Shown: piece by piece, positions 1-28,795 of the stretch
How positions within the stretch are numbered: the stretch's first letter is position 1
Layout of the letters: every line of letters begins with the position of its first letter
Virus record (IMG/VR): IMGVR_UViG_3300029263_000608
Location: 1-28,795 of that record
Strand: one strand, 5' to 3'
Length of the DNA: 28,795 bases
DNA from: a virus
Translations under genes and position numbers: made by a program
The notes under the pieces: model-generated
What the model saw: the letters and a program-made list of their open reading frames with translations, nothing else
What the model was told of the DNA's origin: nothing
The model's database searches: none

Positions 1-771
1 GTATTTTTTTCTATTTCTATCATATCCAGTAGTTAGTTCTGCCATTTTATTGTCAGTCCTTCTATTGGCTTTTAAGAATTCTTTAAGTTCTTGTGCAGGT
101 CCTGACTCACCACCAAATACATCTCCAGAAACAGGATCAAGATTAATGTTAATGCTTTGACTGGGATCATCTTTAGATGTAACAGTCATACCATCAAGCC
201 CATCAAACATACTACCACCTTGCTCAAAATCAAATCCGTAATCTTCAAAATGATATTTCATTCTGTTAACCACTTCAGACTCTTCTCTATCAACCATGTC
301 TTTAGTTACAAAAGCCAAAGATTTATCAAACTGTGAGTCTGTTGAATCGTAAGTAATTGTGTTAGCATTAATGTCTTTACCTTGCTCACGAGGATCGTAA
401 GCAGGGTACTCGGTAACCATGGTCTCTGATTGAGTATCATCGACTACAACATTAGAATCTAAAGGTGTTTCAACTGTGGTAGAAACCACAGAAGTATCTA
501 CGACCTCTGGAGTTTCGGTAGTAGAATCCGTAATAACCACCTCCCCATTTGAAGGAGAAGTTTCGATTGGATTTTTTTTTTCTAATGCAGTAAAATATTC
601 AACATTAAATTTTTCCGCATCTAAATCTGTTAACTTTTCATCTCTTAAATAAGAATACAGCTCAGTATTTTTAGCAGTTCCTGCCGCATACTCAACCTTA
701 AACTGTTCAGAAGATAAATCTGTTAACCCTTGTTCCTTTAAATAATTGTATAACTCTGTAAACTTATCCAT
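1..771 (-). CDS. Large virion (ejection) protein candidate, N-terminal part only
   Basis: The frame is open from an ATG at 771 to the left edge, giving 257 visible residues; the C-terminus lies outside. The ATG shares one base with the stop of the preceding 743-aa gene (TAATG), which suggests translational coupling. Residues 6-28 and 37-59 are two copies of a 23-residue helical motif, ELYNYLKEQGLTDL and ELYSYLRDEKLTDL, each followed by a short stretch ending in VEY. A Thr/Ser/Val-rich linker (about 65-110) and an acidic region follow. No catalytic motif is visible in this part. It is last in a 13-14-15-16-like series, so by position it would match T7 gp16, the large ejected protein that carries a transglycosylase domain in T7. 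That role is inference from order only. Confidence 0.75.
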   Translation of the reverse strand, partial: MDKFTELYNYLKEQGLTDLSSEQFKVEYAAGTAKNTELYSYLRDEKLTDLDAEKFNVEYFTALEKKNPIETSPSNGEVVITDSTTETPEVVDTSVVSTTVETPLDSNVVVDDTQSETMVTEYPAYDPREQGKDINANTITYDSTDSQFDKSLAFVTKDMVDREESEVVNRMKYHFEDYGFDFEQGGSMFDGLDGMTVTSKDDPSQSININLDPVSGDVFGGESGPAQELKEFLKANRRTDNKMAELTTGYDRNRKKY

Positions 772-3002
772 TAATTAAATTTTCTTCTGGTTTTTCTTGT
801 TCCTTTTCTATTTCTATTCTGACGAATTTCGTTTTCGTTATTCGTAACCTTAACAGCTGCCTCACGTAGCATTTTAGTTGCTTCTGCCGATCCAGTTCTA
901 TTAAAAGGGGTCTCACTCATTTGAATTACTGGTAACTGAACCTCGTTATCGTTTTTATCTTTATAAGTTATAATTACTTGATTCTCTCCGTCATCCCATC
1001 TTAATGTAGCACCATTTTTAAATCCTTTAGGTAAGAAATTTGTAAAAACTTCAGAAAAAGCAGTTTGTACTACGTTTTCCGAATCACCTTTTCCTAATGT
1101 ACCTATTTTATCTTCCAGATATACAGTTGGTGAAACCATAGTTGCAGATTTTCCTTCACCCATTATCATACTTTGTTGAGAAGATGATGACACTGCTGGA
1201 TAAGGAGCTAATGAGGCATATTTACTTGCATCACCACCATTAAGAATTTCTCTTTCCATAGCTTTTAATTCAGTATCAGTTACATTTTCACCTTGTGATT
1301 CAATTTCAGCTTTTAATTTTAAAGCATATGCTTTTGTTTCTCTTTTAAAAATTTCTTCATTTAAAACATTACGACTATTGAGGAAATCTTTAGATTCAGG
1401 AGGTTTACCTACTGCTTTTACAGCTCTTTCATTAGCAATAAAGCTTCTGTCTTCTTCATCTGTAGACTCCCTTGTAGTACTTCTAAATCCTCCACCTGGC
1501 TCTTTGTCGTACATATCAGCCGCATATTTAAATGAGTCATCATCTTGATCAGTGACGTATCTCCATAGCTCTTGAGAGATTACTCTTGCAGGTTTAGGAA
1601 CACCACTATCATCAAGTCTATTTATTGGCTCAACTCTACCATCTTGGTAAGTTATAAGAATTTCATCACCATCTCTTATAATATTATCAATTCGTTTTGC
1701 TGGATCTGTTTGGTCTTTATTTAATGCAACAATACGATCATTAGCCTCTGCATCAAATTTACTTGCGTCATCTGAAACCAATGTATTAACACCATCCATA
1801 AACGCAATAAGCTTCTTGTCTTCTTTTTCTGCGGCTAAAGCAGCAGTACTTGGGTCTTTTTTTTGTTGTGGTGTTGCTCCTTGAGTCATTTTTACAATGT
1901 GATCAACTTGAGATTCAACAGCTCTGTCTGCAATCGTACGTGCTTGTTTCATTTGAGCTGCATTCATTTCAGGAATCGGTTGACCTGAACTCATGTCAAC
2001 TTTAATCATAAATTTTGTATCTATACCTGGATGATCTTTTTTAAATTGACTCTCTGTCTGAGCAAAGTAATAACCATTACCAGTTGTCAATATCTCTGCC
2101 GCACTTAGATTAGATGTATCTGATTCAGCACCAACCATGGCATTTATTTGATCTGTCTTCCACATGTCGTAAGTAATGGTTTCCCCATTCTCATCTTCAC
2201 CAAATTCTCCTAATTGCCTAAAATCCTCAAAAGTCGTAATGTTACCACCACCACCAAGAGCAGTTAATCTTTTACGTTCAGAAGTTATAATCGAAGCAAT
2301 ATTAGCTGTTTGTTTTTTTGCCAACTCATTAACATCAACACCAGCATTTTTATACTTCATGAAATCCATGATGTTATTTGGATCTTGGTAGTCTTGTTTT
2401 TGAGTTTTGTAATCTGGCATTACATCATATATTCCAGTCTCTGTGTTTTGCCCCATTGTCACTAACTGCATTTTACCATTAGCAGGGTTGGTCCATAGTT
2501 TTTTGTTTTTTAAATTACCTAAAGCTTCTGTCTGTAAATTAGTAAAAGTCTCTAAATTACCTGACGATATATTTGGATCTTCAAGTCTGGTTCGAGCTTC
2601 AACAGCCCAAGAATCCCAGCCTTTTACAGCTGTGCTTAGACTTTTATATCCAGTTTTCTGCTGTTGCATAAAAAGCATATTATCTTTAGGACTAATTAAA
2701 CCACGCTTTAATAAATTATTCTGTGTTCTTATAGCTTCAACAGACATAGCTGAACCGTTTATTAATAAAGAAGCTGCGTCTTGTGTACCAGTTTCTGGAA
2801 CTTGGCTAAGTTGTTCAATAGACTCTTGAGTAGCTTTTTCAATAGCAGCTTTTTTTGCTTCTCTATCAGCACGTATGGCATCTAATCCTTTAACTAATTG
2901 TCCTGATATTTCATTCCAATTAACCTGCGTGCTGTCTACACTTCTTTGTGCGTAAACTGAATATTTATTAGCCCCTGAAGGTCTTGAAGTTTCTTCTGCC
3001 AT
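771..3002 (-). CDS. Internal virion/ejection protein candidate (T7 gp15-like by position and size)
   Basis: This 743-aa protein is highly polar and probably mostly helical, rich in Gln, Asn, Lys, Glu and Asp. It has no signal peptide, no membrane segment and no recognised enzymatic motif. Its start lies five bases after the stop of the 284-aa gene and its stop overlaps the next ATG, so the three genes form a tight unit. T7 gp15, an internal core protein ejected into the host periplasm, is of nearly the same length (about 747 aa) and sits in the same relative place. I could not align the two by eye, so the role rests on synteny and length. It could instead be another structural protein of the tail or internal core. 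The C-terminus is strongly basic (RKGTRKTRRKF). Confidence 0.8.
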   Translation of the reverse strand: MAEETSRPSGANKYSVYAQRSVDSTQVNWNEISGQLVKGLDAIRADREAKKAAIEKATQESIEQLSQVPETGTQDAASLLINGSAMSVEAIRTQNNLLKRGLISPKDNMLFMQQQKTGYKSLSTAVKGWDSWAVEARTRLEDPNISSGNLETFTNLQTEALGNLKNKKLWTNPANGKMQLVTMGQNTETGIYDVMPDYKTQKQDYQDPNNIMDFMKYKNAGVDVNELAKKQTANIASIITSERKRLTALGGGGNITTFEDFRQLGEFGEDENGETITYDMWKTDQINAMVGAESDTSNLSAAEILTTGNGYYFAQTESQFKKDHPGIDTKFMIKVDMSSGQPIPEMNAAQMKQARTIADRAVESQVDHIVKMTQGATPQQKKDPSTAALAAEKEDKKLIAFMDGVNTLVSDDASKFDAEANDRIVALNKDQTDPAKRIDNIIRDGDEILITYQDGRVEPINRLDDSGVPKPARVISQELWRYVTDQDDDSFKYAADMYDKEPGGGFRSTTRESTDEEDRSFIANERAVKAVGKPPESKDFLNSRNVLNEEIFKRETKAYALKLKAEIESQGENVTDTELKAMEREILNGGDASKYASLAPYPAVSSSSQQSMIMGEGKSATMVSPTVYLEDKIGTLGKGDSENVVQTAFSEVFTNFLPKGFKNGATLRWDDGENQVIITYKDKNDNEVQLPVIQMSETPFNRTGSAEATKMLREAAVKVTNNENEIRQNRNRKGTRKTRRKFN

Positions 3003-3007
3003 GTTGT

Positions 3008-3862
3008 TTATCTATTTAAAATATCATAAAAAGATTGATCATATACGCCAGTCTTTCTATATGCTTTTAGTTGAGCATCCGTAAACCTTCCATCTTGCAA
3101 TCTTGATATAACTTGATTTCTACCTAAAGGCTGAGTTGTAGTTGGAGCAAATAATGCTGCATTATCCATATCTCCAGTTGCTACGTAATCTGCATATTGT
3201 TTTTGCCCTTCAGCTGTTGTACCTGGTTGATTTACTGATGTTGTAGATAAATTAGAGTAATCTAAACCATCAGCCATTTTAGAGGCTGCTCTATCTGCTC
3301 CGCTTTTACCAAATAAAGGTACTAAGCTTGCAGCTCCTTGAACAACTTGACCAACTGATGCAACACCTTGCTGCATAGCTGCTGCTGACGCTTCTTGAGC
3401 ATCTCTTGATCTCATACTTTGATCGGCAGCTGCACCAACCTTCATAGCTTTAAGGTCTTGATTAATATCTGATTGCTCTTGAACTTGCATTTTTTGTAAA
3501 TCAAATAATTCTCTTCCTTTAGCAATACGATTATCTTCAGCTGATACAGTTGCTTGCGCTCCAACAGTTCCTACACCAGCTAATACATTACGAGGGTCAC
3601 CTCCTTGTAACATCTCAATATTTTGTACTTGACTTTGTATGTTACGCTCTTCTTGTCTATCATAAGCATCTAAAGGAACATTAAGTTTTTGCATAAACTC
3701 AACTTCAGCTTTTCTTTCAGCCTCCTTCATTAATTTATCAGTAGCTTCATTAGCTTTTGATGCTATTTTTTTTTGCTTTGCTGCTTGAGCAAAACTCATT
3801 CCAGCTGATGTTGCTGAAATTGCTAATCCTACACCTGCTGCTACTGCTGTAAATACCGCCAT
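3008..3862 (-). CDS. Internal virion protein candidate with N-terminal hydrophobic segment (T7 gp14-like)
   Basis: This 284-aa protein begins with a Gly/Ala-rich hydrophobic segment (about residues 3-26, AVAAGVGLAISATSAGMSFA) followed by a basic, Lys/Glu-rich helix, a Gln-rich predicted coiled coil (about 60-150), and a second short Ala/Val-rich patch (about 165-183). This plan, a membrane-active N-terminus plus a helical body, is typical of the small ejection proteins of podoviruses such as T7 gp14, which inserts into the outer membrane. It starts one base after the stop of the GNAT-like gene and is followed by the 743-aa gene. The role is inferred from architecture and order; sequence identity to gp14 was not established. 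Confidence 0.75.
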   Translation of the reverse strand: MAVFTAVAAGVGLAISATSAGMSFAQAAKQKKIASKANEATDKLMKEAERKAEVEFMQKLNVPLDAYDRQEERNIQSQVQNIEMLQGGDPRNVLAGVGTVGAQATVSAEDNRIAKGRELFDLQKMQVQEQSDINQDLKAMKVGAAADQSMRSRDAQEASAAAMQQGVASVGQVVQGAASLVPLFGKSGADRAASKMADGLDYSNLSTTSVNQPGTTAEGQKQYADYVATGDMDNAALFAPTTTQPLGRNQVISRLQDGRFTDAQLKAYRKTGVYDQSFYDILNR

Positions 3863-3863
3863 A

Positions 3864-4271
3864 TTATATTTTTTTTATTATTTCATGAGATACTTTTGTA
3901 TCTACGTGGTATCCCATTTTTTTATGAGTATCAATTAATTGTTGATTTCGTCCAATACTAAATATATATTTTTTACCATTAGCTTTTATGTATTTCTCAC
4001 ATGTTAAAATTAAAAACTCAATAGCATCCTGTCTGTCATCATCTCTATAAGAAGGATGAGAAACAATCCATTCTAATAAAACTCCCATAGAATTTGTAAA
4101 ATACATAAACCCTGCTACAATAGGAACATTATCTTTTTCTACCATCAAACCGCCTGTGCCATTGTCTGGTAAAAAGTCTTTAGGAGGATTTTGCCAATCT
4201 GGCCATTCATCCCACCAAGACACTAATGTATCCCAATCACCTTCGTTAAGTTTGCGTATATTAAATTCCAT
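3864..4271 (-). CDS. GNAT-like acetyltransferase-fold protein (T7 gp13-like position)
   Basis: The 135-aa protein fits the compact GNAT fold. An N-terminal strand and helix (MEFNIRKLNEGDWDTLVSWW) is followed by central strands (about 42-58, GLMVEKDNVPIVAGFMY), a strand plus the region where the acetyl-CoA loop should be (about 66-82, LLEWIVSHPSYRDDD), and the typical late helix with aromatic end (109-121, NQQLIDTHKKMGY). The pyrophosphate-binding loop is degenerate: no clear RxxGxG/A. Catalysis is therefore doubtful. T7 gp13 is also a small GNAT-like protein (about 138 aa) directly upstream of 14-15-16, with a similar N-x-x-x-I-x-F-x-K-x-x-G end. It has its own likely promoter element just upstream (4289-4296). 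An active protein acetyltransferase is the alternative. Confidence 0.75.
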   Translation of the reverse strand: MEFNIRKLNEGDWDTLVSWWDEWPDWQNPPKDFLPDNGTGGLMVEKDNVPIVAGFMYFTNSMGVLLEWIVSHPSYRDDDRQDAIEFLILTCEKYIKANGKKYIFSIGRNQQLIDTHKKMGYHVDTKVSHEIIKKI

Positions 4272-4304: not shown

Positions 4305-5126
4305 CTATGGATAACTTTTCATCACACTACTTCCTACAGAAAACAATTCAACTGGGTTTGTAGAGTCGTTTTCTAACTTAAATTCTAAGTAATATCCTCT
4401 CGCTCCATGAGACTCTGCAACCGCATTTTTTATAAACATAACAAACTGTCCTACTGTTGGAACAGATGCTTTAGGATCTGCTAAATTAACATTAACAGTA
4501 ATACTTGTAGATGTTTTGGCTAAAATCACCCCTGCTAAAATAGGCTCTGTAGTCGCAACTCCATTGCTTAAAGTTGCTGCATATGCTATATCTCCAATGT
4601 TTAGCAATGAACCAATAGGTGTTGCGAAAGTAATTACAGTTGTAGTGGCAGGTCCACTTACACTTGTAGAGACACCTACACCATTAGCAGAACGCTGTTT
4701 CCAGTTTACTGTCCCAGCATTTGTTCTAAGGTAACTAAACCACTCTCCTTCTTTTTCTTCAAAGTAAGTTTCCAGCATTGATCCTGGACTACCGTCATTT
4801 AAGTCAGTAAGTAATCGTGTACACTCCCATCGAGCTGCATTAGAATCTGATATAGTCGTATTGGATTCATAAGAAAGTGTTTTGAATAATTTAATACTTA
4901 AAGTAGGTTCTGGATTAAATACACTTGTAATAGTGGAATTAGAAAACTGACCATAATATGTATTACGTGCAACTCCTGTGTTATGCCTAAACATATTGCC
5001 ACCTTTAAAACTATAAAAATAACTGTTCATTCCTATCATAAATTCTGGAACAAATGAGTAAAAAGATGGCCATCCTTTAGATGATTCGCTGTATGATAAT
5101 GTATATGATTCGCAATTTAAAGACAT
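4305..5126 (-). CDS. Phage tail structural protein (conserved N-terminal family)
   Basis: This 273-aa protein carries near its N-terminus a stretch I recognise from many marine and crAss-like phage tail proteins: SSKGWPSFYSFVPEFMIGMN, then YFYSFKGGNMFRHN, then RNTYYG. This family usually sits beside or fused to the tail-tube/hub protein. After about residue 150 the character changes to a Thr/Val/Ser-rich beta-type region containing NIGDIAYAATLSNG and VPTVGQFVMFI, possibly an inserted small beta domain, before a conserved-looking end (HGARGYYLEFKLENDSTNP). The gene lies 16 bases after the adhesin-like gene and precedes the GNAT-like gene. The biochemical role is unknown; a virion tail location is inferred from family and neighbours. 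Confidence 0.8.
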   Translation of the reverse strand: MSLNCESYTLSYSESSKGWPSFYSFVPEFMIGMNSYFYSFKGGNMFRHNTGVARNTYYGQFSNSTITSVFNPEPTLSIKLFKTLSYESNTTISDSNAARWECTRLLTDLNDGSPGSMLETYFEEKEGEWFSYLRTNAGTVNWKQRSANGVGVSTSVSGPATTTVITFATPIGSLLNIGDIAYAATLSNGVATTEPILAGVILAKTSTSITVNVNLADPKASVPTVGQFVMFIKNAVAESHGARGYYLEFKLENDSTNPVELFSVGSSVMKSYP

Positions 5127-5142
5127 ATTTTTTTATTTATTA

Positions 5143-6435
5143 TTATGGGCATACAAATATTTGTGTAATAATTCCGTTGTTTCCTATGGTTCCTGTTGCC
5201 TCTGCTCCACCTCCAGCGTCAGAGACTGCAAAACCTTTAAAGTTACTCCAGAAAGGAAATGAAGGTCCTGTAGGACCGTTATAAATTTTATCTCCAACTT
5301 GAGGTAGAGTTCCACTACCATCATGATATAAAAGACCTGATACAGTTACACTACACTCAGTACCTTGTCCAGCAGAACTTCCTCCTGTTGCAAAGAACTG
5401 TGTCCGAGTTGCTCCTCCAGTACAAGCGGCAGATGAAACTACAACTCCATTTCGTACACCAATTGCAGTAGTGTTTGCTATTATGATATACTTCAATAAA
5501 GATGTATCATTTAAATACGTTGATCCATTTCTATCTGTAAAAACAAAATTACCTACATTTGGAGTCGTGTTTGTATCTACAGTAAAAGGAGATGATGTTC
5601 CTGTTGCATTTCGTGCAAAATAATATGTTGTAGTTGCAAAAGCACAAGCTAATGTTGATTGTATGCCTGATGCTGTAAAACTTGGTAAAGCTGCAGGACA
5701 ATCTACTTCCCAATTAAAAACAGTACCACACATAGGAGCGCCAATCAATAAATTAATTGTTGATGGAGCTGCCGAAGTTTTAGGAATTATCATAGTAAAT
5801 ATTCTACTTCCAGTTGGATTAACTCCAATTTCATTTGAAGCCACAGTCACTGTTTCAAAAGTACCTTGAGCAACATATGAAGCTCCAGTATATGTATAAT
5901 TTTGAGGCTTGTCACCTGAACTACAAGATCCAGATGGCGTATTATCGTAAGGAGAATCGCTTAATAAACTGGCGTTACTATTTCCAACATATGTAATTCT
6001 TCCAGTACCTTGGTTTAAAATTCCAGCATAGTCAACTTGAGTGTTAGCACCATTAACTATTGTAAACGTATTATGGTTTCCTTCACAAGTAAGTCTATTG
6101 TATGTATTACTATTGTATGTTCCTAATACACCATCAGGGACTGAACTACCCATATAAAAGTATAAAACTATTGCACCTAAACCACTACCCACATCTATAG
6201 TTGCATTAAATAAACCATTGCCACTAAAAGACGCCTCAACACCTGTACCACACGCAACTGAACATGTACCACATGGTTGAGCATTTAATAAAACACCATT
6301 TACTTGTTGTCTTACAATGTTTGATTGAGAATAAAAACCATCTGGCGAAGGTGTAGTTAGTGTTGAGTCTGTATACAAAGTAGACGCTTGCGAAAAATTT
6401 AATCCATCAAAACAATATGTTACTAATGCTGCCAT
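5143..6435 (-). CDS. Adhesin-like tail protein with repeated Cys-terminated modules
   Basis: This 430-aa protein is rich in Gly, Ser, Thr and Cys with almost no charge, as expected for a beta-structured surface protein. Three regions look like versions of one module: residues 14-55 (ASTLYTDSTLTTPSPDGFYS ending NAQPC), 263-338 (TPNVGNFVFTD ending SSAAC) and 361-430 (LPQVGDKIYN ending IFVCP). Between them is a central domain with a cysteine cluster (CGTCSVACG, 55-63) and a PKTSAAPSTINLLIG segment seen in marine phage structural proteins. It directly follows the tail hub, whose C-terminus carries the same module. A receptor-binding or tail-tip decorating role is likely by inference; no enzymatic motif is visible. 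Confidence 0.75.
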   Translation of the reverse strand: MAALVTYCFDGLNFSQASTLYTDSTLTTPSPDGFYSQSNIVRQQVNGVLLNAQPCGTCSVACGTGVEASFSGNGLFNATIDVGSGLGAIVLYFYMGSSVPDGVLGTYNSNTYNRLTCEGNHNTFTIVNGANTQVDYAGILNQGTGRITYVGNSNASLLSDSPYDNTPSGSCSSGDKPQNYTYTGASYVAQGTFETVTVASNEIGVNPTGSRIFTMIIPKTSAAPSTINLLIGAPMCGTVFNWEVDCPAALPSFTASGIQSTLACAFATTTYYFARNATGTSSPFTVDTNTTPNVGNFVFTDRNGSTYLNDTSLLKYIIIANTTAIGVRNGVVVSSAACTGGATRTQFFATGGSSAGQGTECSVTVSGLLYHDGSGTLPQVGDKIYNGPTGPSFPFWSNFKGFAVSDAGGGAEATGTIGNNGIITQIFVCP

Positions 6436-6447
6436 TTATTAATGTGT

Positions 6448-9400
6448 TTATGGGCATGTAGTTACCGCAGTAACTAAGCCAAATTGATTTACTGTTATAT
6501 AATTTGTTGCACTTATTTTATACAATCCTGATGTTAGATTACTTCCAATAGCTCCATCTGATGCTGAATATACAAAATCTCCAATTTCTGGTAACGCACT
6601 ACTTCCTGAGTGAAAATATGTTTGATTTAATAATTGATTACAAACATTTCCTTCTGTGGAAAATATAGTACTACTTGAATATGATGTGTATGTAAATGCA
6701 CAATCACAACAAGCAGATGCAGAAGAACTTACGTCATAACAAAACTCTTGACAACTAATTAATCTATAATCATATATTAAATATAAATACTGATTAGCTA
6801 CTGGTAAAGATAAAGGATTTATAGTAGCTTGATATAATCCAGTTGACGGACTTATTACAGATGCATTTGGAATTGTAGTTGCAGCCGCTAATAATGTTGC
6901 TATGTCAGTTTTATTGTTTGCATACAAAGTATTGCTTGATAAAAATTTAAAATTATCATTAGGAAATGCCCAATCATAAGTATCAAAATTTATTTTATTA
7001 GAACGCAATGTTAAATTTACACCATCATAAGGAAAAACTCCCAAAGACCTTATTCCTGTTTGAGCATCATAGCTTGAAGCTATTAAATTACTTGAACCGA
7101 ACTCTGCTAAATCTGAATCTATTGGACTAAGATTAACACCATCTTTCCACACATACTCTACATGAATAAATTCTCCACTTTGTTCTGGCGAATTCATAAC
7201 AATTTTTACAACTGTTATTTCAGTAGGACTAACACATTCAGCTGTTACTACAAAAGATGCTTGTGTAATTGCAGTAAATGTTACTGTTGCATTAGAAGGA
7301 CTATTTAAAGTTTTATTAAAACTAAATGTTCCAGATCCAGTTAAGGTAGCACTTGTTGTTGTAACACCATTCCATAACACAGAAATAGTTATTGATCCAG
7401 TTGAAATATTATAATCAAAATTAGCTGTTCCAATTAATGCACCATAATTTATAACACTAACAATAGCGTTTGATGCTCCAGCTAATAATCCCTTTCTTTG
7501 TAAATTATAACCGCATTCAGAAATTTCTGGAGGTAAAGGTATTTTATCGCAATTCATTGCTAAAACATATTCATCCATGTAAGGATCAAATCCTCCTAAT
7601 TTTTGTGTTTGAATAGAAGTATAAAATTCATCTCTAAACCAAGAACGCATTCCAAATGCAGATATTACTTCTAAAGAATCATTATTTCTACTTGTACCTC
7701 TTAACTTTAATACAGCACCTCTTTTTACATCAGTAAAAAACATATCATATCCATGAGCTACAAAGCTTTCAGGATTATAACTAATACCATACTCTTCAAT
7801 ACGAGCAATTTGAGTTCCTAAAATTTCAGGAACTGATGCAATAACACCACCACCAGTACTATCACTAATTAAATTTTTACTTGATAATACATAAGTAATT
7901 CTGTCTTCTTGTAAAACTAAAATATCTGTTTCTCTTGGATGCATTTTTTGTATTGGTCCAAAAGAAGTTTCACAATCTTTGAAGTTTGCTAAACCTAAAT
8001 TAAATTCATTTAAATTGTTTACTCCACTATTACTGCTAAAAATACCACTATAAGTAATTCCTTCAAATCTATCAGCTTCTTTAAAGTCTTGATTAGAAAC
8101 AGCTAATACTCTTTGACCTAACTGAAATGATCTTCCTGCTAATTGATCTTTTATTTTAAAACTTTCTACTCCATTACCAAATGAAAAACAGTCTCTAAAA
8201 TCTAAATTAACTACAGCGTCTTGAGAAGCGGTTTGATTTTGATCTCCTAAAACAGTATTAACTCCAGACATATGAAAACCATCTGGTTGCGATATAGAAA
8301 AAGATTGTGATGCATCGTAATACAATTCTGCATTAGCATCATTCGGTTCTGTTTCAAATACCAGTAAAGTATTTGCTCTAAAAACTATTAACTCAACATC
8401 TAAATCAGCTGTTCTATCAGGGTTTATAAATCTATCACATCCAGGCACTCCAGAAGATACTCCTAAATGCAAAGGGTCATTTGCACTTTGAGCAGCAGCT
8501 TGTATCCACTGAAAGGTTACTGCGTCACGAGTACAAGCCATATTAGCTGCTATACCAGCATTACCAGGATTAGGTACTGCCAAATTGCCATCAAATAACC
8601 CTGCTGTATCTCCATCAACATTTCCTGGTTGTGCAAGGCCTGGATTTATATTATCTCCAATCCACCACCTTCTCATGTCAAGGTAATCTTTAGATGATAC
8701 ATATTCCTGTTCCCACTCCCATAATCTTTTTTCACATTCGTTTCCACTAAAAGTACCATTACGAAGCATTCTAACTTTTATTCTTATAACAGTACCACCT
8801 GGTACATCATAATTTGTAGTCACATTTGTGGTAGGATTTGTAGTAAAACATTTGTATGCAAGTCTTTTTCTAAAATTGCAACTATTACCACCACGACCAG
8901 CGTCTCTTATTTTTATGTTTCCAAATTCTATAATAGAATCTTCTGGTATAACAATATCAAAATTTTGATTTTTAATTTGCATATACAAACCTTTTAATTG
9001 GCTTGAATCTTCACCTAATTCATTATCATCACCTAAAAAGTTTGTTGCCTCTGCACTTATTTCTAAAATCTCACATGTTTCAACTCTTGATAGCGGTCCA
9101 CTTACATCTGCCTTTACCGCAAGAGTTTGTCCTTTTTGAACTTTGTTTGCGTTATCTCCTTCAAGCTTAAAGAAAACCATATTATCACTTGGTCTAATGT
9201 AGTAAAAATTAGAAAAAATAGTTTCATAACCTGCTTTACTTGGCTTAACAACAAACTTATATCTCTCTGCCCAATAAGGCGCTCTGGATGATACCGCAAC
9301 TTGTATGCTATTTGCGGTAACACTATCCCCAGGTTCTACATAAACAGTATTATATTCAGAAACTAAAACCGTAGAAGACCTACCATATTCATCGCTGTAT

Positions 9401-11244
9401 ACAATACCTGTTTCAAAATCACGATCACTATGTAAACTTCCTGTATCTAAGTCTGTTGTAAAACCAGCTTGTACAGATATAAATCTAAAATATTCATATA
9501 AAGTAGTTGTTACAGGACTTGCAGGAACTGATGTATCAATACTTTGAAATGCCATTGCAATAGTCTGAATATCACAAGTGTTTGATCCTGGCGAAAAATT
9601 TGAAATATTAAATCCTTGTTGTAATGAAGCATCTGAAATACTACTATTAAATTTAACAAAAGGAAATGCTCCTATAGCTGGAGAAGAAAGTTCATTATTA
9701 AAAAAATCTGTTAATGAGTTTCCTTGATCTGCTGTGGCAAGGGGTTGAAAATTAGTTCCAAGAATAGTTCCAATACGTTCTGCAAACAAAGGACTATTAA
9801 AAAAATCATACGGACTTGAATAGTCTTGGTCTAATGTTATATTTACAGAAAGAGAAAATGACTGATTTTTAAAATTAATATTTGCAGTAGCAGCAGTAGT
9901 ATCATTTGGAAAAAAAACTCTTTTATCGCTTTCAAAACTAAATGTAAATCCTATTAAAGCATTAGTTTTTAATTTGTCAGCAATTAAAGTAAAATCAACT
10001 GTAGCTTTTGAGTTATCAATTATTTCACTTTGTCCAGGGTTTGGGTCTAACGTGTATGTTAGTCCACTATTTAAAAGAGCTAATGGCAATTGAGCTTCTC
10101 CTAAAATAGTACTAATTAAACTTGTGTTAAAGTCAATAGCAATTTTGTTTCCATCTGCATCAGGTCTTGAAATATTATAACCATCTACATAATTACCATA
10201 CATTAAACGATTGCCTTGTATTGTTTGAGCTTTTGCTAATCTTGGTACATTATCAAACTGTCTAAGTAATTCGTCATTACCTAATACAGTGTATATTTTA
10301 TTGTTAGTAAAAGTGAATGATTTAGTTGTATTATTAGCCCAACCAAAATCTTCTTTTTTAAATCTTTCTATTACATTAAGTGTTGTTGAATTAGTATCTT
10401 TAAATAACAAATCAACTTCTTTAACTCTTGAGCTTCCTGTAGAAAATTGAATTTCAATTCCGTTATACAGATTTAACATTCCGTCATTACAATAGTTCTT
10501 TGTACTAAATTGAAATGGACGAGGAACAAAACCTGGATTCGAGAATAAAGACGTTGCACTATACTGCCCATCTTCATACCTATATCGATACGCAAAACAC
10601 AAAAATCTATTTTCAATATAGTTTTGATTTCCAGCGATATTTAAAAAACTTAATGTTGGTGCTGGTAAAGGAATATTTCCCCCTACAATGTTTTCAAAAC
10701 CAGGTGGCTTAACCACTACAGATATATCTTCTTCTATAATTTGATCTACATTTGAAATTGGTGCTGGATAATTTCTATCTATATTTATTGTTCGAGGAGG
10801 GTTTTTGTCATCTGTCCAAAATAATAAATTTTCAATTAAATCAACTCCTGTTATTAAAAATGCAGAATCAAAATTTAAAAGTCCTACTGTAATGACATGA
10901 TAATTAACTATTTCATCAGTTGTATTATATGACACCACTAAATCAACAACTCCACCAGGAGCTTGAAGATTTGAACCGTCATGAATAAACCAGTAAATAA
11001 CTTCTCTAACACCATCTTGATACGCCCCTATACATACAGCGGCTGCACTTAAAGGCTCACCATCGTATTGAATAGTAGTTAGCTGCTCGTTTCCTTTTGA
11101 GTTCTCTACAGCTCCGATTTCAGTAGACTCTGTAGAACCTAAACGGACATTTTGAGCATCAACATATTCACCTGGAGGAAGAAGTCTTTCATCCACAGCT
11201 TTATTCATTCTACCTGCAATAAAATTTGTTGTAACTATTGGCAT
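6448..11244 (-). CDS. Giant tail hub/nozzle protein (tail tubular protein B or P22 gp10-like)
   Basis: At 1598 aa this is the largest gene here. The N-terminus (AGRMNKAVDERLLPPGEYVD, then GSTESTEIGAVENSKGN) is the signature of the tail-tube/stabilisation protein family of podo- and crAss-like phages. A beta-rich body follows, with conserved blocks such as VYSDEYGRSSTVL, ETDILVLQEDRITYVL, EYGISYNPESF, GMRSWFRDEFY and GGFDPYMDEYVL, probably a beta-propeller platform like T7 gp12. The last roughly 300 residues are an extension with low-complexity beta sequence, a CCDC cluster, and a C-terminal module (LPEIGDFVYSASDG ending AVTTCP) that recurs in two other genes. It lies one base upstream of nothing but spacer: the ring-protein stop is two bases before its ATG, and the adhesin-like gene follows after 12 bases. 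It is about twice the length of T7 gp12 because of the extension and longer insertions. Confidence 0.85.
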   Translation of the reverse strand: MPIVTTNFIAGRMNKAVDERLLPPGEYVDAQNVRLGSTESTEIGAVENSKGNEQLTTIQYDGEPLSAAAVCIGAYQDGVREVIYWFIHDGSNLQAPGGVVDLVVSYNTTDEIVNYHVITVGLLNFDSAFLITGVDLIENLLFWTDDKNPPRTINIDRNYPAPISNVDQIIEEDISVVVKPPGFENIVGGNIPLPAPTLSFLNIAGNQNYIENRFLCFAYRYRYEDGQYSATSLFSNPGFVPRPFQFSTKNYCNDGMLNLYNGIEIQFSTGSSRVKEVDLLFKDTNSTTLNVIERFKKEDFGWANNTTKSFTFTNNKIYTVLGNDELLRQFDNVPRLAKAQTIQGNRLMYGNYVDGYNISRPDADGNKIAIDFNTSLISTILGEAQLPLALLNSGLTYTLDPNPGQSEIIDNSKATVDFTLIADKLKTNALIGFTFSFESDKRVFFPNDTTAATANINFKNQSFSLSVNITLDQDYSSPYDFFNSPLFAERIGTILGTNFQPLATADQGNSLTDFFNNELSSPAIGAFPFVKFNSSISDASLQQGFNISNFSPGSNTCDIQTIAMAFQSIDTSVPASPVTTTLYEYFRFISVQAGFTTDLDTGSLHSDRDFETGIVYSDEYGRSSTVLVSEYNTVYVEPGDSVTANSIQVAVSSRAPYWAERYKFVVKPSKAGYETIFSNFYYIRPSDNMVFFKLEGDNANKVQKGQTLAVKADVSGPLSRVETCEILEISAEATNFLGDDNELGEDSSQLKGLYMQIKNQNFDIVIPEDSIIEFGNIKIRDAGRGGNSCNFRKRLAYKCFTTNPTTNVTTNYDVPGGTVIRIKVRMLRNGTFSGNECEKRLWEWEQEYVSSKDYLDMRRWWIGDNINPGLAQPGNVDGDTAGLFDGNLAVPNPGNAGIAANMACTRDAVTFQWIQAAAQSANDPLHLGVSSGVPGCDRFINPDRTADLDVELIVFRANTLLVFETEPNDANAELYYDASQSFSISQPDGFHMSGVNTVLGDQNQTASQDAVVNLDFRDCFSFGNGVESFKIKDQLAGRSFQLGQRVLAVSNQDFKEADRFEGITYSGIFSSNSGVNNLNEFNLGLANFKDCETSFGPIQKMHPRETDILVLQEDRITYVLSSKNLISDSTGGGVIASVPEILGTQIARIEEYGISYNPESFVAHGYDMFFTDVKRGAVLKLRGTSRNNDSLEVISAFGMRSWFRDEFYTSIQTQKLGGFDPYMDEYVLAMNCDKIPLPPEISECGYNLQRKGLLAGASNAIVSVINYGALIGTANFDYNISTGSITISVLWNGVTTTSATLTGSGTFSFNKTLNSPSNATVTFTAITQASFVVTAECVSPTEITVVKIVMNSPEQSGEFIHVEYVWKDGVNLSPIDSDLAEFGSSNLIASSYDAQTGIRSLGVFPYDGVNLTLRSNKINFDTYDWAFPNDNFKFLSSNTLYANNKTDIATLLAAATTIPNASVISPSTGLYQATINPLSLPVANQYLYLIYDYRLISCQEFCYDVSSSASACCDCAFTYTSYSSSTIFSTEGNVCNQLLNQTYFHSGSSALPEIGDFVYSASDGAIGSNLTSGLYKISATNYITVNQFGLVTAVTTCP

Positions 11245-23324: not shown

Positions 23325-23400
23325 TTTTAATACGTTTAACTTTTTTTAAAGGATAATTTTCTTCGTTTAAATCATCCATCCAATCCCATTCTCTACTCAT
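23233..23400 (-). CDS. Overlapping 55-aa basic protein (short gene)
   Basis: An ATG at 23400 forms an ATGA overlap with the stop of the GroES-like gene, a classic coupling arrangement. The frame runs 55 codons to a TAA at 23233. The product begins MSREWDWMDDLNEEN and then becomes very basic (KKVKRIKNEHKRNKIKNNRS) with a Gly-rich end (GGDTADKSGEGGYY). Its last 92 bases overlap the 91-aa gene in a different frame. Without it there would be a 72-base unexplained gap in an otherwise tightly packed operon. The acidic-aromatic head with basic tail suggests a nucleic-acid or protein-binding peptide; the function is unknown. Confidence 0.65.
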   Translation of the reverse strand: MSREWDWMDDLNEENYPLKKVKRIKNEHKRNKIKNNRSRTQGGDTADKSGEGGYY

Positions 23401-23966
23401 AACACAACTGTTATATTTTTAGTAAACATACGGTATAGTTTTTCATCATCTACAATAAACTCATATTCTGATTCTGGCTCATATAAAACTTCATCACCAA
23501 TTTTAACTCCTTTTTTTATTAACTCATCATTAATATACCTAACAGTACCCCTTAATGGTTCGTTCTTAGAGTTTTTATTTAAATAAGACTCTTGAGCTTT
23601 TAATGGTTTAATAAAACAGTATTTACTATACCCCATCCAATTAGATTCATCTTTAGTTTTGTAAAGATAAAATTGATCAGGATCGACAAAGAATAGATCA
23701 TCTTTAAAAAAGCTTTTACCACTCTTTCTGCGCCCATACATGTCGTTGTAAAACTTAAATACATTATGATGTACTAAAAGTATATCGCCCTCTCTAACAG
23801 GACCTGTGTAGTTTATAGGAGTTGCTATTACAATAGCAAAACGATTAGAAGATTTGTGGTCTTCTTCTGAAGTACTTGTAATAAAGTCTACGTTACCATA
23901 GGACTTAATATTATCGTATCTTCTATTGTTATAGGGTTTAACAATAAACGAGTATGGAGATTTCAT
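23397..23966 (-). CDS. GroES-like co-chaperonin candidate with two fused domains
   Basis: The 189-aa protein appears to contain two GroES-type beta-barrel halves. Domain 1 (about 6-103) has FIVKPYNNRR, AIVIATP and PVREGDILLVHHNVF. Domain 2 (about 116-189) has YCFIKPL, LRGTVRYIND, KIGDEVLYEPESEYEFIVDD and a C-terminal EKLYRMFTKNITVVL, which parallels the GroES ending in which a GD-V-L-F strand is followed by an I-D-G-E-E-L hairpin and a D-I-L-A-V end. Residues 123-138 could be the mobile loop that docks to GroEL. Phage co-chaperonins such as T4 gp31 help host GroEL fold the capsid protein. The gene is upstream of terminase and shares a base with the preceding gene (TAATG). The fold call is by eye and could be wrong. 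Confidence 0.6.
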   Translation of the reverse strand: MKSPYSFIVKPYNNRRYDNIKSYGNVDFITSTSEEDHKSSNRFAIVIATPINYTGPVREGDILLVHHNVFKFYNDMYGRRKSGKSFFKDDLFFVDPDQFYLYKTKDESNWMGYSKYCFIKPLKAQESYLNKNSKNEPLRGTVRYINDELIKKGVKIGDEVLYEPESEYEFIVDDEKLYRMFTKNITVVL

Positions 23967-25447: not shown

Positions 25448-26197
25448 TTAGGGAAATTGACATTTTATGTTGGTAATAATAACACCTGTGCTTGCTGCAA
25501 TTTTTATGGCTGCAATACCGCCATTGATACAAAATGTTGTAGTTGCTGCTGAACCATTTTGAATGAAAACAGAAGGTTCAATCCCTGTATGTCTTTGTAA
25601 AGGATTTTGGCGGTCAATATCGCTGTAAAGAATATCTCCTATATCTAAATTACTGGCATCCCCAATAGTACTATCATAATAATAATCTACAGGAGTAGAT
25701 GTACCTCCAGTTACATCAAAATAAACAGCTGTTAAAGTATTAGTTGTGTTGCAACTTGTCACATCAGAAGCAATGCCCAGTGTACTTAATTTAAATGCAG
25801 CTGAATTTAATCCAGCAAAAGCACCAAAATACTGAAAATTACCACCGCTTCCAGGAAACGGATCACCTGGTGATCCATTATCGTCTTCCCAAAACTTATC
25901 ATTGTTTGAAACTGAATTTGGATTTCTGTTTTTCCAAGCTAATACTGTCCTGTTAGCGGAACAAGCTGTGCCTGGATTACCTGCTTGTATTGTAATATAT
26001 ACTTCGTTTTGAGCAGCTGTGTTATTACCGTAATTTCTAAATTGCAATAAATTGCTTTCATCTCCTGGTCCATAACTGCTATCAAAAGCACCGTCATCCG
26101 CATCAGCAAAACATTCAACTAAATCGTTAGATGAAGGTAAAACCGCTGCGACTACATCTGCCATCGAAAAAGTTGTTGTATCTGGTACGCTTGACAT
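25448..26197 (-). CDS. Fibre-associated protein with Cys-terminated modules (249 aa)
   Basis: The ATG shares a base with the stop of the large S74 fibre (TAATG). The N-terminus (TTTFSMADVVAAVLPSSNDL, then LLQFRNYG) is a domain I associate with phage and bacterial surface proteins. It is followed by one or two copies of the module seen in the tail hub and adhesin-like proteins: about 149-246, with YYYDSTIGDASNLDIGDILY and an end VIITNIKCQFP; and perhaps about 60-149, with NNDKFWEDDNGSPGDPF and TSC. Being coupled to a fibre gene and sharing modules with tail-tip proteins suggests a fibre tip or receptor-binding role. This is inference. Confidence 0.75.
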   Translation of the reverse strand: MSSVPDTTTFSMADVVAAVLPSSNDLVECFADADDGAFDSSYGPGDESNLLQFRNYGNNTAAQNEVYITIQAGNPGTACSANRTVLAWKNRNPNSVSNNDKFWEDDNGSPGDPFPGSGGNFQYFGAFAGLNSAAFKLSTLGIASDVTSCNTTNTLTAVYFDVTGGTSTPVDYYYDSTIGDASNLDIGDILYSDIDRQNPLQRHTGIEPSVFIQNGSAATTTFCINGGIAAIKIAASTGVIITNIKCQFP

Positions 26198-28795
26198 TAT
26201 ATTCCTGCTTTTTCTAATCTTGCTTCTAACTCAGCAATTTTAGCGATTAGTAAATCTATATAAGCAACGGACTTAAATCCTCGATTATCTGTTCTTACAA
26301 ACTCAGGATTAGTCTCTTCTAACTCTTGTGCTATAACTCCATATCTCTTTTGTCCTTTTTCGCTTTTTAACTCAAAAGTTTTCCAATCTGCGTTAATTCT
26401 ATTATCGCATGCTTCTTCAATATTTTCTTTAAATCTTTCATCAGAAGATAGTATAAAGTTAGTTGCAGTTACTGTAGAAGTAAATCTACCATCACCACTA
26501 ACATCTAATTTATATCCAGGAGTAATCGTTCCAATACCAACATTACCAGTTGGTAGGATACGCATTTTTTCATTTGCCGCAGAATTTGCAAAAGATCCAC
26601 CAGTTGGTTGACAGTGAAAAGCTATAAATGCGTCATCGTTAGCGCTGTACTGAGCAGACCTTATGTGAGCTAAGTGATCGTTGTTTCTTTCCCAAGAATA
26701 TAATCCTAAATCAGAATTAACACCACCATCTGTGTGATCTAATATAATTTCGTTATTACCTGTACTTTGTAATTTTATTACTTTAGTAGAATTTAATTGA
26801 GAAACAGGGTTTGTTGTTCCTAAACCTATATTACCATTTACTATTGCATTATTAGCAAATACCCAATTACCTTGATTATCATAAGTGCTTGCATTAAAAC
26901 CTCCATCAATTTTTCTTGAGAAAAAAGTTACTTTACCTCCTCTTGTAGTCGTAGTACCTCCTTGTGTTGCTGTTCTTAATATAAATAATCTATTATCACC
27001 ACCTGGAGCAGCAGTTGTTAAATAGTTAATTTCGCCTACAGTATCATTATCCCCAGTTGCATCTCTTCTAAGGCTGAAGGATGCAGCAGAAGTAGATGGT
27101 CTAAGAATTTGTAAATTACCTGTAATTGTTCCACCAGTTAGTGGTAAGAAAATTCCAGCACCTGGTTCAATAGCGTCTACGTAGGCTTTAGTAACAAAGT
27201 TTGCAGCAGAAGTAGGTGTAATACCAGATACTAATCCTGCAAAAGTTGCGACACCTGCTTGGGTTAATGTAAGAGCTGTTGCCATAGAACCACCTGATCC
27301 ATCACCGCTTCTCCATTGCCACGAACCAGCTTGAGTTCCTGTATTACTATCCCACTGATCAAATCTGGTTGTCATAGCACCAGTAGTTTCATCTTGTCTG
27401 TGTACTAAATGTGCGTTTCTGTCTTCAGTATAAACTCCCCAATATTGAAATGGATCTCTACCAACTCTAAGTTGAGGTTGTGTCATTATTACGCCACTGA
27501 CTGTAAATACGTCCAAACCAGAATCATCAGTATCATGGTTTATTTTTAAACGGCTTTCGCTTGCGTCCCATTCCATTTTTTCACCTGTAGCATTTCCATA
27601 GAAGAGTACGTCATGACCATCTGTGTCAGCTCCAACTGTTAAAGAACCTGTCAATGTTCCACCAGTTAGTGGTAAATAAGGACCGCCTGCGCCACCACCA
27701 CTTGCTACTGTAATATTACCTGAAGCATCAGTTATTAATGTGCCTGCTCCGTAAGCATTAAATTTAAGCGCTCCTGCAGAGCTAATGACCATTCTTTCTG
27801 TTAAAGTATCTCCTGAGTTTGTTTTAAAGCTCATTGCGCCTTCTAAAGCTCCTCCATTACTAACAATTAAACTGCTAATTTCACCAATTATATCAGTTGC
27901 AGCAAGATTATCACCAACGACAAAAGTAAGATTGGCTCTGTTACCTAAAGCTTCACCAACTTTTATAGCAGTGTAAGAAAATGATTGACCGCTGTTCTCA
28001 AATATTGCTGTATTTGAAATTCCTGTTGTTTCCACTTGTAATTTAGCGTCAGGCGTAGTCGTCCCAATACCAACGTTGCCTGCTGTGTCAATACGCATTC
28101 TTTCAAGATTGTTTGAAGCACCTGCTACATTAAAAGTCATTGCATTAACTCCACCACTAGTAGACTCTACTGTATAATTTATAGAACCTTTAATCCCAGC
28201 GCCTTGACCTGAGCCATCTGCTCCATAAAAATTTATTCCACCAATTCTATCTCCAATAGTCCAACTTGAATCATTTTTTAAACATCCTATAGTGATTATA
28301 GATGTATTTGCTAAAGCACTTTCTATATTAAAAAGCGTATCAGGACTTGTCGTCCCAATACCAACATTTCCAGCTGATGTGATACGCATTCTTTCACTTG
28401 CTCCAGCACTTAAAGACATATTATTTCCTACAGCACCAATTGTAACATAAGTTCCACCACTTGTTCCAGCTCCAGTAAAAGCAATTTCTCCAGCACCATT
28501 ATTCCCACCATCAAAAATTGCAACTGTCTGAGAAGATGTATTTACAACATGTAATGGTCTTGTTGGCGTAGTCGTCCCAATACCAACGTTGCCAGTTGCT
28601 GCTATACGCATTGCTTCATTAGGTTCTCCCGCAGCGTCTCCTTTTGTTGCAAAAGCTAATCCAGTATGACTACCGTAAATACTTACTTCATTAATTAGAC
28701 TTATACTTGCTCTTACAGAATTAGCAGCTTGCCCAGAAGCATCCTCACTAAAATACTGTAAAGCAGAAATTACCTGACCTATTGTCCAAGTTCCA
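26197..28795 (-). CDS. Tail fibre with C-terminal S74 intramolecular chaperone, 5' end outside window
   Basis: The frame is open to the right edge, giving 865 visible residues; the first internal Met (28611) is not the start, because the same repeat pattern continues upstream of it (GTWTIGQVISALQYFSEDAS). It has five fibre repeats of the NVGIGTTTP type and two LPLTGGTLTG-like motifs that often mark fibre-domain joints. The last 83 residues (26200-26448) are a peptidase S74 domain: SSDERFKENI, KRYGVIAQELEE, YIDLLIAKIAELEARLEKA. Such domains trimerise the fibre and then cut themselves off before the conserved Ser. The fibre is encoded upstream of terminase, unlike T7, where it follows the ejection genes. 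Confidence 0.94.
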   Translation of the reverse strand, partial: GTWTIGQVISALQYFSEDASGQAANSVRASISLINEVSIYGSHTGLAFATKGDAAGEPNEAMRIAATGNVGIGTTTPTRPLHVVNTSSQTVAIFDGGNNGAGEIAFTGAGTSGGTYVTIGAVGNNMSLSAGASERMRITSAGNVGIGTTSPDTLFNIESALANTSIITIGCLKNDSSWTIGDRIGGINFYGADGSGQGAGIKGSINYTVESTSGGVNAMTFNVAGASNNLERMRIDTAGNVGIGTTTPDAKLQVETTGISNTAIFENSGQSFSYTAIKVGEALGNRANLTFVVGDNLAATDIIGEISSLIVSNGGALEGAMSFKTNSGDTLTERMVISSAGALKFNAYGAGTLITDASGNITVASGGGAGGPYLPLTGGTLTGSLTVGADTDGHDVLFYGNATGEKMEWDASESRLKINHDTDDSGLDVFTVSGVIMTQPQLRVGRDPFQYWGVYTEDRNAHLVHRQDETTGAMTTRFDQWDSNTGTQAGSWQWRSGDGSGGSMATALTLTQAGVATFAGLVSGITPTSAANFVTKAYVDAIEPGAGIFLPLTGGTITGNLQILRPSTSAASFSLRRDATGDNDTVGEINYLTTAAPGGDNRLFILRTATQGGTTTTRGGKVTFFSRKIDGGFNASTYDNQGNWVFANNAIVNGNIGLGTTNPVSQLNSTKVIKLQSTGNNEIILDHTDGGVNSDLGLYSWERNNDHLAHIRSAQYSANDDAFIAFHCQPTGGSFANSAANEKMRILPTGNVGIGTITPGYKLDVSGDGRFTSTVTATNFILSSDERFKENIEEACDNRINADWKTFELKSEKGQKRYGVIAQELEETNPEFVRTDNRGFKSVAYIDLLIAKIAELEARLEKAGI
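28052..28080. repeat. 29-bp direct repeat in the fibre gene, copy 1
   Basis: It is identical over 29 bases to 28565-28593 and encodes the fibre repeat NVGIGTTTP. A near copy lies at 28343-28371, and diverged copies near 26808-26840 and 26521-26550. Confidence 0.9.
28565..28593. repeat. 29-bp direct repeat in the fibre gene, copy 2
   Basis: Identical partner of 28052-28080, encoding the same NVGIGTTTP fibre repeat about 513 bases away. It offers a site for homologous recombination inside the fibre gene. Confidence 0.9.

Follow-up and report, generated by a model that had tools for sequence, protein, structure and literature searches.

A gene block of T7-style layout behind a crAss-type muzzle gene is probably the ejection module of a Bacteroidota-type podovirus

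The ejection cluster of podoviruses is recognised as a gp14-like gene beside gp15, followed by a larger gene; its sequences are little conserved, and homologues of gp15 have mostly been assigned by size and synteny (PMC8954989). In crAss001, the products of gp45, gp46 and gp47, encoded behind the muzzle gene gp44, are found in virions, and gp45 and gp46 have been proposed to be channel proteins (PMC10172136). Here, we describe a block of four genes at the left edge of the virus record IMGVR_UViG_3300029263_000608; the window that we analysed is the entire record (28 795 nucleotides, nt). A sequence-only reading of this DNA had proposed a T7-like ejection block in the order of gp13 to gp16, and we therefore call the last three genes slots 14, 15 and 16. 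We consider that the block is probably the ejection (cargo) module of a podovirus whose tail has a muzzle of the crAss type. Anatomically it comes closest to the crAss001 cargo genes that follow the muzzle gene; ‘T7-like’ applies to the layout only, kinship by descent being not supported. The features concerned are as follows (lengths in amino acids, aa).

Positions 1 to 771, minus strand: truncated giant (slot 16), N-terminal 257 residues; open frame with 248/257 identity to the relative L007.
Positions 771 to 3002, minus strand: slot-15 protein, 743 aa, probable ejection protein of the periplasmic-tunnel type; position conserved in relatives.
Positions 3008 to 3862, minus strand: slot-14 protein, 284 aa, probable ejection protein of the membrane-pore type; hydrophobic N-terminus and homology to relatives.
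Positions 3806 to 3862, minus strand: hydrophobic N-terminal segment of the slot-14 protein, residues 1-19; Kyte-Doolittle hydropathy 1.72.
Positions 3864 to 4271, minus strand: GNAT-like protein, 135 aa, at the T7 gp13 position; phrog_17252, E = 8e-33.
Positions 4305 to 5126, minus strand: C-terminal part of the muzzle as a separate gene (crAss_MUZ_C); Pfam PF25729, E = 1.2e-10.
Positions 6448 to 11244, minus strand: N-terminal and main part of the muzzle (crAss_MUZ); Pfam PF25731, E = 6e-11.

The list of open reading frames bears out the positions, sizes and order claimed for the four consecutive genes. All lie on the minus strand, 33 nt from the upstream gene, and the block reads as one operon because its internal gaps are only 1, 5 and -1 nt. 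The slot-16 gene, open at position 1, is a truncated giant, neither short nor unrelated: the complete copies in relatives have 2957-3234 aa (3045, 3053, 2957, 3234 and 2976 aa), that of L008 at least 3332 aa, and the 257 residues in the window match L013 at 223/257 positions in addition to the match to L007.

Relatives were collected by scanning viral contigs with the GNAT-like family and the 743-aa family. This yielded 76 distinct loci, with all four slots present in 62 and the remainder mostly ended by contig ends. In most of the 76 the GNAT-like gene is followed by a protein of 197-323 aa, then one of 444-781 aa, then the giant, and because the following slots hold their sizes across the 76 loci the gene order is not due to chance. 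The window's 743-aa protein has its nearest relatives at 84-87% identity (viral contig search). The same order occurs in Flavobacterium elemo, Maribacter Panino and Cellulophaga Pachyviridae phages, the last with small inserts: small genes or a tRNA, located between the GNAT-like gene and slot 14, interrupt the block in 3/62 complete loci. Elemo, Panino and the Cellulophaga phage phi18:3 share with the window the gene order behind the muzzle and GNAT-like genes and a homologous slot-14 N-terminus, and their giants are connected by BLAST to those of the window's close relatives; they differ in slot 15, which has no detectable kinship to the window's family. Among cultured phages, the GNAT-like protein matches those of Flavobacterium, Cellulophaga, Tenacibaculum and Maribacter, which makes the earlier label ‘Bacteroidota-type’ sound.

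In phi18:3, the positional equivalents of slots 14-16 are gp120, gp121 and gp123, and GenBank marks all three with the remark ‘experimental MS/MS proteomics analysis’ (MS/MS, tandem mass spectrometry); the GNAT-like gp116 has no MS/MS note in GenBank. It is this detection of the last three proteins in virions, together with the conserved order, that makes an ejection module the best reading of the block. The operon-like spacing, the restriction of the hydrophobic segment to slot 14, the place behind the muzzle gene and the zincin motif of the giants (see below) speak for it as well. The description of the ejectosome as unannotated holds only in part, as the annotation of relatives already names these proteins as virion structural.

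The genes upstream of the block encode, in the order of transcription, the terminase large subunit, the portal, a virion structural protein at the major-capsid position and two structural proteins of the tail/ring type, followed by the muzzle protein and then the GNAT-like protein. The muzzle assignment is corroborated by hhalign, which aligns the product of 6448-11244 with residues 1-152 of crAss001 gp44 (95.5%) and that of 4305-5126 with residues 1034-1331 (97.8%). The muzzle genes directly precede the four-gene block, as in the Crassvirales cargo block. In crAss001 also, three genes lie directly behind the homologous muzzle gene, and they encode the same sequence of types as slots 14-16: first a protein that has a hydrophobic segment, then one of intermediate size, then a giant. 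The differences are that crAss001 has no GNAT-like gene, that its gp45 has 842 aa compared with 284 aa for slot 14, and that the muzzle of the window is split. No homology was found when slots 14 and 15 were aligned with the single sequences of crAss001 gp45-47 (hhalign at most 5.6%). The muzzle appears to be split in two, its parts separated by a gene (5143-6435) for a 430-aa protein that belongs to no known family; elemo phages have a single muzzle-sized gene at this place.

Membrane segments were judged by Kyte-Doolittle hydropathy alone, without a dedicated predictor. The 284-aa protein had been described as having a membrane segment, and its N-terminus is indeed hydrophobic (residues 1-19), with a second, weaker segment at residues 166-184. 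The first 60 residues exceed a hydropathy of 1.1 in 71/74 slot-14 proteins, and residues 1-19 of T7 gp14 reach 1.31. The N-terminus of slot 14 is homologous across the two main groups: over its first 50 residues, the 284-aa protein shares homology with the slot-14 proteins of elemo, Panino and Pachyviridae phages (hhalign 93.7%). The 743-aa protein has no hydrophobic segment by hydropathy, and neither has T7 gp15. Slot 15 is filled by several families among which no similarity is detectable, while their size and place are conserved.

The AlphaFold model of the 284-aa protein contains long helices, predicted with low confidence, at residues 24-59, 64-87 and 91-163; its C-terminal domain (188-284) has a predicted local distance difference test score (pLDDT) of about 84, the mean over the whole model being 56.8; the AF2 (AlphaFold2) model of the 743-aa protein has a mean pLDDT of 62.7. 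Foldseek searches of the PDB with both models gave no match, although models of such low pLDDT cannot exclude T7 folds. For the 743-aa model, Foldseek retrieved only viral models without a name (E down to 4.5e-23); its match to an Aeromonas phage PS protein, ‘internal virion protein B’, is insignificant (E = 0.2) and was rejected. Neither Pfam nor PHROG gave a match to the 743-aa protein at E < 0.03, phage records gave no tblastn match to either the 284-aa or the 743-aa protein, and profile searches of the PDB with slots 14 and 15 returned nothing meaningful.

An S74-like chaperone end (SDIRLKENI...GVMAQEVP), usual on fibres, is present in slot 15 of L020, L021, L026 and L130 and in slot 14 of L067 and L080; a Pfam S74 match was obtained for one scanned member (E = 8e-6). 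If such fibre-typical ends were taken as diagnostic, the proteins could belong to tail fibres or decorate the virion surface instead of being internal cargo. We consider this very unlikely in view of the hydrophobic N-termini, the mostly helical predictions, the position behind the muzzle and the precedent of internal cargo in crAss001.

The likeness to T7 lies in the order along one strand, after the nozzle or muzzle gene, of a GNAT-like gene at the place of gp13, a small protein with a hydrophobic start, a middle-sized one without and a large one. The block differs from T7 in that the giants are more than twice the length of gp16 and, in relatives, carry a zincin and no detected lytic transglycosylase. 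Alignment by hhalign with the T7 gp13-16 profiles gave probabilities of 0.1-3.3% (at most 3.3% for gp14), similar to the values for reversed T7 profiles. The Pfam families T7_gp13 (PF11090), T7_gp14 (the gp14 family, PF24072) and SLT (PF01464) were absent from the GNAT-like and slot-14 members scanned and from 22 giants of relatives, respectively, while the T7 proteins themselves matched at E = 1e-47 to 1e-31 (gp13, 1.1e-47; gp14, 7.6e-47; gp16, 1.7e-31). These 22 giants include those of elemo, phi18:3 and phi19:3; several are complete and the others are cut short by the end of the flank. As the giant of the window is cut, the SLT and zincin readings rest on the giants of relatives. The lytic transglycosylase that the sequence-only reading had suggested looking for to the left of position 1 was not found in relatives. 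Of its ‘T7-like ejection block’ the order, the sizes, the hydrophobic slot 14 next to a slot 15 without such a segment, the giant and, in phi18:3, the location in virions are supported, whereas the sequence kinship, the transglycosylase and a match to the gp14/gp15 folds are not.

The 135-aa protein was termed GNAT-like. Its family profile gives a full-length match to the structure 1mk4 (residues 3-124; E = 0.02), in addition to the match to phrog_17252. The protein of 1mk4, YqjY, is a member of the GNAT family; its record reads ‘hypothetical’. Acetyltransf_1 matched 3/17 scanned members (best E = 0.01), and T7 gp13 itself shows weak matches to spermidine acetyltransferase structures. Pfam Cas9-WED and HdeA also matched the protein but were under their cut-offs and were discarded. 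The Q/RxxGxG/A motif of the acetyl-CoA loop is present in 0/76 members. The GNAT assignment is plausible but weak, and as no member has the loop motif the protein most likely has a GNAT-like fold without activity.

As crAss001 lacks a GNAT-like gene, this feature is common to T7 and the window and not to crAss001. It speaks in favour of a true T7-type ejectosome, which would share ancestry with gp13-gp16 and have diverged past sequence recognition; the hydrophobic N-terminus in both slot 14 and gp14 points the same way, as does the alignment of the GNAT-like family with gp13 by hhalign, which is colinear (query columns 7-130 to gp13 residues 2-123) with a probability of 0.4%. We find such an ancestry unlikely, given profile comparisons at the level of the controls, the lack of PF11090, PF24072 and SLT matches, and a small-middle-large order that is common to podoviruses generally. 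The adjacent small, middle and larger genes agree with the general description of podovirus clusters, and membrane-spanning elements are indicated by hydropathy in slot 14 and in the giants (one or two segments of at least 1.5 in the giants tested). The block would thus qualify as an ejection cluster by the general definition, not by T7-specific features.

Zincin-like metallopeptidase (MPTase) domains with HExxH and a downstream glutamate have been described for polyvalent proteins, for example the packaged N4 vRNAP (virion RNA polymerase); the roles proposed for these domains are processing of the large protein itself or action in the host (Iyer et al., 2017, PMC5512222). An HExxH motif is present in 40/53 giants of more than 1000 aa, where shuffling expects 0.007 per giant; in a few of the 40 it lies elsewhere in the protein and may belong to a different domain. 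Eighteen giants align over 185 residues, in which H76, E77, H80 and E134 are invariant. Many giants of relatives thus resemble polyvalent proteins in being giant phage proteins with HExxH and a conserved downstream glutamate, and they carry a probable zinc metallopeptidase of this kind. They differ in that Pfam found no other polyvalent domain in the window's close relatives and that their zincin matches no named MPTase family; the matches to Peptidase_M78, SprT-like and aureolysin were all sub-threshold, and we did not adopt these names. A Pfam scan of 19 relatives' giants returned only isolated family matches. In the elemo giant (L005:20385-31469), DUF3293 is found at residues 1323-1392 (E = 1e-12), somewhat upstream of HExxH (residue 1543). 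Since the giant of L007, 248/257 identical to the window's over the 257 aa available, carries HExxH at residue 1135, we infer that the window phage's own giant has the zincin region as well.

In crAss001 gp47 (L037), annotated as an RNA polymerase subunit, an HExxH (TTYHEAFHVVF) is located at residue 2157, near the C-terminus. It is alike by eye to the zincin of the giants, but a link between the two received no support from hhalign or HMMER with shuffled controls and was set aside.

A size of at least 3000 aa, the HExxH...E domain and the lack of SLT could also indicate that the giant is mainly an injected multidomain effector (polyvalent, with a zincin and perhaps anti-defence functions), the channel being formed by the 284-aa and 743-aa proteins. 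We regard this as possible but rather doubtful: the place and size class of the giant match those of gp16-type proteins, some giants have hydrophobic stretches, and channel and effector roles may share one protein. A bolder proposal is that a lineage of crass-tailed flavobacterial phages has an ejectosome built on the T7 plan from unrelated parts, with a packaged zinc metallopeptidase in the giant in place of the transglycosylase of gp16; by means of it the giant would process itself in ejection or cleave peptide bonds of the envelope. This appears improbable to us at present.

Several points weigh against an ejection module as outlined here. No homology to any known ejection protein is detectable by profile searches. 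The MS/MS detection gives location in the virion only and says nothing about the head interior. The window's giant is cut off by the edge before the peptidase region. Finally, the giants of Pachyviridae, including the MS-detected gp123, have no HExxH; the peptidase is consequently not essential to the module.

For the block as an ejection module, a mechanism can be drawn by analogy with T7 (PMC8954989, PMC11784390) and crAss001 (PMC10172136). The 284-aa protein, the 743-aa protein and the giant would be stored inside the head, close to the portal. Once the phage has adsorbed, the first to exit would be the 284-aa protein, which would insert its hydrophobic N-terminus and helices as an outer-membrane pore, the 743-aa protein would build a channel across the periplasm, and the giant would follow, reaching the inner membrane or the cytoplasm and delivering its enzymatic domains. 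The probable zinc metallopeptidase seen in relatives may serve to process the giant that carries it or to cleave proteins en route. The GNAT-like protein would most likely be an assembly factor like T7 gp13 and not an acetyltransferase. Virion membership is the only part of this mechanism with experimental support, and that in the relative phi18:3; the location in the head, the order of ejection, the pore and tunnel roles, the peptidase activity and the role of the GNAT-like protein are what we infer from the analogy.

Elsewhere in the window, a co-chaperonin GroES-like protein (23397-23966; phrog_13932, E = 2e-22) is encoded before the terminase gene, likewise in elemo and Panino phages. A large repeat-containing protein (26197-28795) is open at the right edge, and by eye its end (DERFKENI...YGVIAQELEE) resembles an S74 fibre chaperone.

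What is new here is the combination of a crAss-type muzzle tail, a T7-style gene order and a giant that probably bears a zincin. Ejection proteins are highly divergent and are matched by size and order; the block offers a sequence-defined family in dozens of marine flavobacterial-type phages, some of them in culture on Cellulophaga, Flavobacterium and Maribacter, in which this T7-style layout goes together with the crAss-type muzzle tail. The family makes testable whether these phages form a T7-like channel and what role a packaged metallopeptidase may play in the entry of DNA.

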